This document shows, piece by piece, positions 34,093-36,989 of a DNA stretch of 64,000 nucleotides (position 1 is its first letter; each line of letters begins with the position of its first letter). The notes under the pieces were generated by a model, which did no database searches, was not told the DNA's origin, and worked only from the letters and a program-made list of their open reading frames with translations. Source of the stretch: Alphaproteobacteria bacterium (GTDB lineage Bacteria > Pseudomonadota > Alphaproteobacteria > Reyranellales > Reyranellaceae); NCBI GenBank assembly GCA_016869975.1, contig VGCZ01000014.1, positions 1 to 64,000 of the forward strand, in the 5' to 3' direction. Both the position numbers and the translations under genes were made by a program.

Positions 34093-35253
34093 ATGAAGCG
34101 CAGCGAAGACCGAATCCTGGTGACCCATGTCGGCAGCCTGCCGCGCCCGGCCACGCTCGACGACCTGCTGATCCGCCAGGAGGCCGGCGAGCCGGTCGAC
34201 GAGGCGCTGCTGGCGCGCGAGGCGGCGGAGGCGGTGCGCAGCGTCGTGGCCAAGCAGATCGAGGCCGGCATCGACATCGTCAACGACGGCGAGCAGCCGC
34301 GCGTCGGCTTCCAGACCTACATCGTGCGCCGCATGTCTGGCTTTGGCGGTGAGTCCAAACGGCCGCGCGCCAAGGACATGCAGGAGTTCCGTGTCTACGC
34401 CCGCCAGCTCGCCCAGCGGCTGTCACGCCGGCCCAAAGTCGCCAACGCGCCGCAAGCCGTCGCCGACGTCCGCTACGGCACGCTCGACGAAGCGAAGGCC
34501 GAGGCCGAGATGATGCGCGCGGCATTGAAGGCGCAGAAAACTCAGCCGCTCGAGACCTTCATGACCGCGCCTTCGCCCGGCATCATCGCCACGACGATGC
34601 TCAACGCGCACTACGACAGCCACGAGGCCTATGTCATGGCGCTGGCGCGCGAGCTCAAGCGCGAGTACCGCTTCGTCGTCGACCAGGGCTTCACCCTGCA
34701 GATCGACGCGCCCGACTTGGCCATGGAACGCACCATGCTGTTCCAGGACAAGTCGCTGGCGGAGTTCCTCGCCATCGTCGAGCTGCATGTCGCGGCGATC
34801 AACGTGGCGCTTGATGACATCCCGCGCGAGAAGGTCAGGCTGCATTGCTGCTGGGGCAACTGGGAAGGGCCGCATATCCACGACTTGCCGCTCGCCGATA
34901 TCCTGCCCCTGCTCTACGCCGCCAAGGCCGGCGCGCTCAGCCTCGAATTCGCCAATCCGCGCCACGCGCATGAATACCCGGCGTTCAAGCGCTCCCCCCT
35001 GCCCGCGCACATGACCCTGATGGCCGGCGTGCTCGACACCACGACGAATTTCGTCGAGCACCCCGAGCTGATCGCCAACCGGCTGTGCGAAGCGGCGGCG
35101 GCGGTGGGCGATCGCGAGCGGGTGATCGCCAGCACCGATTGCGGCTTCGGCACCTTCGCCGGCTCCGCCTATGTCGCTGAGGACGTGGTCTGGGCCAAGC
35201 TCGCCGCCGCGCGAGAGGGCGCGAACACCGCGACGAAGCGACTGTGGGGTTGA
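34093..35253 (+). CDS. MetE C-terminal-like / epoxyalkane-CoM-transferase-type zinc methyltransferase
   Basis: This 386-residue TIM-barrel protein matches the catalytic domain of cobalamin-independent methionine synthase. LVTHVGSLPRP (about 9-19), IDIVNDGEQPR (about 59-69), VRLHCCWGNWEGP with the zinc His and Cys, LSLEFANPRH with the Glu, and STDCGFGTF with the last Cys ligand are all present. The folate-binding N-terminal half of MetE is missing. Stand-alone versions include epoxyalkane:coenzyme M transferase and other thiol alkyltransferases, so methionine synthesis is not assured. No cobalamin or SAM riboswitch is evident upstream. Confidence 0.88.
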   Translation: MKRSEDRILVTHVGSLPRPATLDDLLIRQEAGEPVDEALLAREAAEAVRSVVAKQIEAGIDIVNDGEQPRVGFQTYIVRRMSGFGGESKRPRAKDMQEFRVYARQLAQRLSRRPKVANAPQAVADVRYGTLDEAKAEAEMMRAALKAQKTQPLETFMTAPSPGIIATTMLNAHYDSHEAYVMALARELKREYRFVVDQGFTLQIDAPDLAMERTMLFQDKSLAEFLAIVELHVAAINVALDDIPREKVRLHCCWGNWEGPHIHDLPLADILPLLYAAKAGALSLEFANPRHAHEYPAFKRSPLPAHMTLMAGVLDTTTNFVEHPELIANRLCEAAAAVGDRERVIASTDCGFGTFAGSAYVAEDVVWAKLAAAREGANTATKRLWG

Positions 35254-35261
35254 ACCACCAT

Positions 35262-35284
35262 CGTCATCCCGAGCGCAGCGATGG
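35262..35284. repeat. Single arm of the CCGAGCGCAGCGAGG repeat
   Basis: CGTCATCCCGAGCGCAGCGA begins here, nine bases after the stop of the MetE-like gene, but no second arm follows. It marks the boundary where lower-GC accessory sequence begins. Confidence 0.6.
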
Positions 35285-35291
35285 GCCGGTA

Positions 35292-35798
35292 CTAGTGCAA
35301 GCGGGCAGGCCCAAGATGCTCGAACTGGACTTCGACATAATCGGAGTCTCTCGGCCCCTTCGGGCCTGGGACTTTCTCCGTTCCCGCTTTCGGCTGACAA
35401 TACGGTCGATCACTATAATAGGCCACAGGGTTCATCGACTGCGTTATGCAAGCGTCGTGCGTCTTGTCGTCGGTGATTTCCAGACGGCAATTCCATTGGG
35501 CGAGCGTTGGGACTTCGTTTTCGGGGACCGTAACGACGACAGTCACGGTTGCGCTGAAGGGTCCACTCGCTGGCATCGTCAGTGGAGTCCAGTCGGACTT
35601 CCCGGTCGCCACGATCTTGCCCTTTCCGGCGACGCTGCAATACCCACGATAGAATTTAACTTGCGGCATCACGTTCATCAGCTTCACCGGCAGCTTGAAG
35701 GTGATCTGGCGTCCGGCGGCCGCGCTCGGTGCTGCGGTGGCAAACAACATGAGCCCGGCCGCCAAGAATGCCGACGTCAATCGTGCGTGCAGCATCAT
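35292..35798 (-). CDS. Small secreted protein with four cysteines, unknown function
   Basis: This 168-residue protein begins MMLHARLTSAFLAAGLMLFA, a clear signal peptide with probable cleavage after the Ala-rich stretch near residue 27. The mature part is predicted beta-rich (ATVTVVVTVPE) and has four cysteines (about 54, 104, 117, 134) that could form two disulfides. No family was recognised. The ATG at 35798 has GAGAGGA eight bases before it, better than the ATG at 35807. The gene starts 14 bases after the stop of the PELSFTG-repeat gene, making a two-gene operon. The base composition is lower in GC than flanking genes. Confidence 0.7.
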   Translation of the reverse strand: MMLHARLTSAFLAAGLMLFATAAPSAAAGRQITFKLPVKLMNVMPQVKFYRGYCSVAGKGKIVATGKSDWTPLTMPASGPFSATVTVVVTVPENEVPTLAQWNCRLEITDDKTHDACITQSMNPVAYYSDRPYCQPKAGTEKVPGPKGPRDSDYVEVQFEHLGPARLH

Positions 35799-35811
35799 GG
35801 TACACATCCTC

Positions 35812-36141
35812 TCATGGACCGCGGCCCGTAAACGAAAGTTCTGGCGTCGTGATGATGGCCGGAATTATCGGCGGAGGTGGGGACGGCTCACCTGCCCGCC
35901 CGGTGAACGAAAGCTCTGGCGTTGTGATGGTGGACGGAATGACCGGCGGTGGCGTGGGCGGCTCGCCCGCCCGCCCCGTGAACGAAAGCTCCGGCGTTGT
36001 GATGGTGGACGGAACGACCGGCGGTGGCGTGGGCTGGTTCTGTGCGAAAGCATTAACGCCGCTTGCGGCGAATGCAGCGAGCATCAGCGCCAAGTGCAGG
36101 CCGGTGCATGGACCGGAGACGAGCAACGCGTTTCGGCGCAC
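35812..36141 (-). CDS. Secreted proline-rich protein with three 25-residue repeats (TTPELSFTG)
   Basis: After a signal peptide (basic RRN start, hydrophobic LALMLAAFAASGVNAFA, cleavage before QNQ), the whole mature protein is three tandem copies of a 25-residue unit: a PTPPPVIPSTI-like proline stretch followed by TTPELSFTGRAGE. The last copy ends at the stop. It is likely extended and either cell-envelope-attached or secreted; the function is unknown. GTG at 36141 is preferred, seven bases after GAGGGG; the in-frame ATG at 36156 has no ribosome-binding site. A perfect FNR/FixK box lies upstream. It is the first gene of a two-gene operon. Confidence 0.72.
   Translation of the reverse strand: MRRNALLVSGPCTGLHLALMLAAFAASGVNAFAQNQPTPPPVVPSTITTPELSFTGRAGEPPTPPPVIPSTITTPELSFTGRAGEPSPPPPIIPAIITTPELSFTGRGP
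35815..36033 (-). repeat. Three tandem 75-bp coding repeats
   Basis: Units at 36033-35959, 35958-35884 and 35883-35815 are in frame and encode the 25-residue PELSFTG repeat. The two upstream units are closest to each other; the last is more diverged at its start and cut at its end by the stop codon. Differences are mostly at third positions, suggesting selection to keep the protein sequence. Confidence 0.9.
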
Positions 36142-36172
36142 CCGCTTACCCCTCATTCACGAGACTGTGCCA

Positions 36173-36215
36173 TTCATATCACTGCGCTTCGATCTGCACC
36201 TTTGATCTAGATCAA
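36173..36215 (-). promoter_or_regulatory. FNR/FixK box with matched -10 element
   Basis: TTGATctagATCAA at 36202-36215 is an exact match to the FNR/Anr/FixK consensus TTGAT-N4-ATCAA, inside an 18-base perfect palindrome (36200-36217). On the minus strand TATGAA (36178-36173) is centred 33 bases further on, as expected for a class II site near -41.5 with its -10. The start site would be near 36167, giving a roughly 25-base leader to the GTG at 36141. No such -10 is found toward the rightward ORF. Oxygen-limited activation of the secreted-protein operon is inferred. Confidence 0.7.
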
Positions 36216-36274
36216 AGATGCCTTAACCGCGACGCTTTCGGCTTGGCGATGCCGGCTTTGGGTCAAAACCAGAC

Positions 36275-36541
36275 ATGACCGTTCCTCGGCGTTATGTTTA
36301 TTTTGCCTGCGAGGGTGGACATCCTAGTCACAGCTTGATCGCTCTGGCTGACTTCACTGGTGTCGCTTGTGTGGGCAGGCACGGATTGTCCTGGGTAAAC
36401 AAAGATATCGCGAGCGACGAAGTCCGAATTCTCGGAATTGAGAATGGAATAATCCGAGTGCAGGGCTTTGTTGCACCCCGCAATGCAAGTGTGCAGTTCG
36501 AGATTGATGTACGAAGCGGCAAAGTTCTAACTGGCCGATGA
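36275..36541 (+). CDS. Small hypothetical protein, unknown function
   Basis: This 88-residue ORF has no recognised family. It begins MTVPRRYVYFACEGGHPSHS and is predicted to be mostly beta strand (SVQFEIDVRSGKVLTGR at its end). It has no signal peptide and two Cys. The DNA here is lower in GC than its surroundings, consistent with acquired sequence. No good ribosome-binding site precedes the ATG, which lowers confidence. It ends five bases before the convergent thioesterase stop, a spacing typical of real genes. Confidence 0.5.
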   Translation: MTVPRRYVYFACEGGHPSHSLIALADFTGVACVGRHGLSWVNKDIASDEVRILGIENGIIRVQGFVAPRNASVQFEIDVRSGKVLTGR

Positions 36542-36545
36542 GCGC

Positions 36546-36989
36546 TTACGGCGCCGCGTTGACCAGGAAGTGAATCTGCGCCGCCGCCACCGGCCGCGAG
36601 CGGTCCTCCTGCCAGGCCTCGACTGAGACGTTGACGACGCGGCGACCCTGCTTGGTCACGGTGGCCTTGGCGATCGTGTCGACCGGGCGGCCGGAGCGCA
36701 GGTAGTCGACGGTGATGTTGACGATCTTGGGCAGGCTCTCGTTGTCGAGCTCCCACAGCAGGTGGAAGATCGCCGCCATCTCCATCAACGCGCCGATCGT
36801 GCCGCCATGCAACGCCGGCAGATGCGTGTTGCCGATCAGCTCGGGCTTGTAGCGCATGCGCGTGAGCAGCTCGCCGGTCGAGTTCTCCGGCGCCATGCCC
36901 ATCCACTGGGCGTAGGGAATCGCCTCGGCCAGCGCCGCGAGGTCGCCCGCGTCGCGCGCCTTGCGCAGGCGGTCGAGACGCAGGCTCAC
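36546..36989 (-). CDS. PaaI family hotdog thioesterase
   Basis: This 147-residue protein has the PaaI hotdog fold: ALHGGTIGALMEMAAIFHLL (about 59-78) is the HGG-x-l/x5-D/E region, with Glu in the central helix, and ITVDYLRSGRPVDTIAKATV is the following strand pair. It would hydrolyse acyl- or aryl-CoA thioesters to free CoA. It overlaps the upstream paralogue by four bases (ATGA) and so is co-translated with it. The two may form homo- or heterotetramers. They follow an acyl-CoA dehydrogenase gene. Confidence 0.85.
   Translation of the reverse strand: MSLRLDRLRKARDAGDLAALAEAIPYAQWMGMAPENSTGELLTRMRYKPELIGNTHLPALHGGTIGALMEMAAIFHLLWELDNESLPKIVNITVDYLRSGRPVDTIAKATVTKQGRRVVNVSVEAWQEDRSRPVAAAQIHFLVNAAP

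Follow-up and report, generated by a model that had tools for sequence, protein, structure and literature searches.

The FixK-type box and its surroundings

In the window, by which we mean the whole 64-kb stretch of DNA that was analysed, an insertion lies between a methionine-synthase-like gene, which ends at 35253, and a thioesterase gene, which ends at 36546. It carries a palindromic FNR/FixK box, a pair of genes for putative secreted proteins and an 88-aa open reading frame (ORF). The features are as follows.

35262-35285, no strand: intergenic palindromic repeat, left half only, adjoining the insertion; the entire hairpin is found at the same place in the same-genus genome G003
35285-36545, no strand: species-specific insertion of about 1.26 kb, GC 58%, between two genes that neighbour each other in three other genomes of the genus
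35292-35807, minus strand: second gene of the pair, with 171 aa from the first possible start or 168 aa from ATG 35798, a signal-peptide-like N-terminus and a beta-rich domain
35812-36156, minus strand: first gene of the pair, with 114 aa from ATG 36156 or 109 aa from GTG 36141, a signal-peptide-like N-terminus followed by three 25-aa Pro-rich repeats ending in TTPELSFTGR
36166-36167, minus strand: transcription start predicted from geometry only, which puts the dyad centre at -41.5 to -42.5
36173-36178, minus strand: -10-like hexamer TATGAA with TG (36181-36180) one base upstream, making an extended -10; its centre is 33.5 nt from the dyad centre
36200-36217, no strand: FNR/FixK box, perfect palindrome CTTTGATCTAGATCAAAG with the core TTGATCTAGATCAA at 36202-36215, found by pattern, palindrome and dyad scans
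36275-36541, plus strand: divergent 88-aa ORF on the same insertion, a doubtful gene with a third-position GC of 0.47

The initial annotation had described an exact FNR/FixK box within an 18-base perfect palindrome. The pattern and palindrome scans confirmed this, as the 18 bp pair without a mismatch and contain the exact TTGATN4ATCAA dyad. The surrounding dyad extends over 36196-36221 (92% in the repeat and dyad scan). The box is the sole match in the window both to this motif and to TTGAYN4RTCAA, while Markov models of the window (order 1-5) predict about 0.006-0.06 chance occurrences of the exact 14-mer per 64 kb. The 4.84-Mb genome contains five exact sites, compared with none for a reversed control pattern. 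Three are intergenic: the box described here and those at PPK2 and at cytochrome c/Hsp20. The other two are probably chance matches: one lies within a CHAT-like ORF and the other overlaps the start codon of clpB (names from reading the sequence). Since two of the five matches lie in or on the start of genes, an exact match alone does not prove function.

The position of TATGAA on the minus strand, which had also been pointed out earlier, agrees with the layout of class II CRP/FNR promoters, where the dyad lies near -41.5 and the -10 element about 32 nt from its centre. At many other FixK-type sites the best -10-like hexamer is centred about 31.5-32.5 nt away, and most of these hexamers match the consensus weakly. 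The spacing of 33.5 nt is slightly above the ~32 nt of most of these sites, which counts against our reading. However, it falls inside the tolerated range, because the pioABC operon of Rhodopseudomonas palustris needs for its expression a FixK box at -44.5, as shown experimentally (PMC3050613). There is no obvious -35-like element upstream of TATGAA, and the box sits in its place.

The two minus-strand ORFs are separated by 4 nt. The first gene probably starts at GTG 36141 rather than at ATG 36156, because AGGGG (36149-36153) stands 7 nt ahead of the GTG. The best start of the second gene is ATG 35798, with GAGAGG (35808-35813) upstream. The Pro-rich units of the first protein are encoded by three in-frame tandem repeats of 75 bp (35822-36046). 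Among the variable columns of these copies, 9 of 15 fall on codon position 3 of the first gene's frame, which suggests that the 114-aa protein is translated; one plus-strand frame gives a similar result. This protein belongs to no family in Pfam or NCBIfam and had no convincing homologue in 60 relatives, where its weak low-complexity matches were rejected for lacking the TTPELSFTG repeat.

The 171-aa protein also has no Pfam or NCBIfam family. No homologue was found in the 60 relatives, in a class-wide sample of 385 genomes or in the genome_contigs, viral_contigs, plasmids and phages collections, and sub-threshold matches in these searches were rejected as chance-like. Its single-sequence structure prediction has a beta-sandwich-like core (residues 32-112, pLDDT about 75). 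Since the model gave no Foldseek match at E<=0.001, it does not point to a function. The earlier description of two secreted proteins of unknown function is upheld in that both are apparently exported, with the signal-peptide-like segments judged by eye. The wider claim of an envelope or secretion programme is not supported, because the locus encodes no more than two small proteins, each with an apparent signal peptide, in an orphan operon on a species-specific insertion. No orthologues of either protein were found ahead of which the conservation of the box could be compared.

In the same-genus genomes G001, G002 and G003 the flanking genes lie side by side, separated by about 85, 20 and 93 bp, and nucleotide identity to these genomes is about 87-92% on both sides of the insertion. 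One gain in the window's lineage explains this more parsimoniously than three losses. The GC content of the insertion (58%) is lower than that of its surroundings (about 66%) and falls to 52% in the intergenic stretch holding the box. Third-position GC is 0.70-0.71 in the operon and 0.9 in the neighbouring genes. A repeat scan revealed no terminal inverted repeats or target-site direct repeats standing out at the insertion ends, so we name no mobile element. The half hairpin next to the insertion belongs to a dispersed palindromic repeat beginning GTCATCCCGAGC, which also occurs at G000:C16:5837-5871 and in the L059 gap; a relative has it whole at the intergenic place where the window keeps half.

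The FixK-like regulator and its candidate targets

The genome encodes a single FNR/FixK-type protein (C1:1717-2403), composed of the Pfam domains cNMP_binding and HTH_Crp_2. Its best NCBIfam match, ahead of FnrL and Fnr, is FixK NF050806, with 213 bits against an equivalog cutoff of 300, which it does not reach. The recognition helix is ETVSR, as in FNR, and the N-terminal cysteines of FNR proper, an Fe-S sensor, are missing. Ahead of the gene lie fixJ (256 bits, PRK09390 cutoff 255) and a gene for a second receiver protein. Upstream of fixJ is the C-terminus of a histidine kinase cut by the contig end, presumably the C-terminal part of FixL. Because it lacks the cysteine cluster and is encoded beside FixLJ, the FixK-like regulator would not sense oxygen itself; oxygen is most likely sensed by FixL. 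Of the FNR/FixK control proposed initially, the type of box and the presence of a cognate regulator in the genome stand, with the qualification that this regulator is FixK-like and not itself the sensor. We also considered a second CRP-family protein (contig C16, CRP-like by profile) and rejected it, since CRP sites (TGTGA-N6-TCACA) do not match the box.

The same type of box is present in intergenic regions ahead of recognised FixK/FNR targets in this genome. Such sites stand in front of hemN, the Usp/Zn-alcohol dehydrogenase pair, the cytochrome c/Hsp20 pair, PPK2 and the gene for a P-type cation ATPase, and there may be others at a further Usp gene and a fatty-acid hydroxylase gene. The FixK regulon predicted for Alphaproteobacteria includes Hsp20, class I cytochrome c, Zn-alcohol dehydrogenase, FixJ and FixL, and the predicted FNR regulon includes Usp and the oxygen-independent coproporphyrinogen oxidase HemN (PMC2908626). 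In same-genus genomes a FixK-type site precedes ccoN and Usp. We did not find ccoN in the genome under study, whereas two same-genus genomes have it with FixK boxes. The organism has kept FixLJ-FixK yet seems to be without the classic cbb3 target.

Two further loci were noted. The sole COX1-family oxidase found in the genome (G000:C23:51355-52704) belongs to an aa3-type cluster. A narGHJI-like cluster (G000:C1:101384-106634, names from reading the sequence), whose narG apparently lacks its 5' part, may represent a nitrate reductase locus that has decayed; the PPK2 gene and its exact FixK box lie just beyond it.

Interpretation and alternative explanations

Beyond the existence of the site and of the regulator, everything proposed below is inferred, including any physiological role. 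The palindrome at 36200-36217 is probably the operator at which FixK activates a class II promoter; this promoter would drive an orphan operon of exported proteins, recently recruited to the extended FixK regulon. Under low oxygen FixL would phosphorylate FixJ, which would then induce fixK. The FixK dimer would bind the palindrome centred near -41.5 and contact RNA polymerase, and the transcript would start near 36167 on the minus strand and run through the two genes, whose small products would be exported. As operon and promoter share a lineage-specific insertion of ~1.26 kb, they would be a recent addition to the species-specific ('extended') part of the regulon.

FixK could also bind here to repress, or bind silently, with the genes expressed by other means or hardly at all. 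Several FnrL sites in Rhodobacter sphaeroides do repress (PMC2908626), and an extended -10 such as TG plus TATGAA could work alone. We nevertheless regard this as unlikely, since the distance between box and -10 fits activation and the place of a -35-like element is taken by the box. The palindrome is symmetric and the 88-aa ORF starts about 60 bp away, so a functional box might serve this ORF mainly or in addition. This is quite improbable: a -10-like hexamer is missing from the plus strand at the equivalent class II distance, which makes activation in that direction less likely, and the ORF has no clear ribosome-binding site, no relatives in Pfam, NCBIfam or homology searches, and a codon-position GC that differs from that of host genes. 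Its structure model was too poor for use.

The palindrome might instead have arisen by chance in an AT-richer non-coding stretch (52% GC) of a decaying or foreign insertion. The two other exact genomic matches that are intragenic and the orphan character of the genes would agree with this. However, just about 0.0004 exact matches are expected in a 1.26-kb stretch of the insertion's composition, and the -10 is correctly spaced, the genes that follow have ribosome-binding sites and the genome encodes a cognate regulator, so we give little credence to a coincidence. It also counts against a FixK operator that a perfect palindrome on a foreign-looking insertion might be bound by a different factor.

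FixK control of the orphan operon is best read as one more ordinary case of an extended FixK regulon gaining members, which is a known phenomenon. It is correct, as stated initially, that known FixK regulons lack these two genes; this is also to be expected, as extended FNR/FixK regulons differ even between close species (PMC2908626). A more far-reaching idea, which we consider conceivable but doubtful, is that two orphan exported proteins, complete with a FixK promoter, came in or originated as one finished unit, the 1.3-kb insertion, and became part of the oxygen regulon in a bacterium seemingly without the usual cbb3 oxidase target, giving it a lineage-specific surface function at low oxygen.

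If orphan genes on an insertion brought with them a perfect site for the oxygen regulator already present, or evolved one, this would be a clean example of regulon growth. If true, the entry of a new gene pair into a global regulon would be datable, the pair being present in one species and absent from three congeners, and we would have an initial hint of when these two uncharacterised exported proteins are active. Otherwise the case is one of ordinary FixK biology.

Comparison with known FixK and FNR systems

The promoter most resembles the class II promoters of FixK and FixK2 in Alphaproteobacteria, such as pioABC of R. palustris and the FixK2 targets of Bradyrhizobium diazoefficiens. The common features are a 14-bp TTGA-N6-TCAA box near -41 to -45, a -10 element only, and FixLJ-FixK genes (PMC3050613, PMC9104804). 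In contrast to these, the targets here are orphan, apparently exported and located on an insertion, and the promoter is predicted from sequence. Promoters of the Fe-S proteins FnrL and FnrN have a DNA site indistinguishable from our box, but the regulator of this genome lacks N-terminal cysteines and is encoded beside fixJ. As in the extended FNR/FixK regulons described by Dufour et al. 2010 (PMC2908626), species-specific genes would have joined a conserved oxygen regulon, whose core-type targets are present here too. Unlike in those regulons, one small insertion here holds both the added operon and the promoter.
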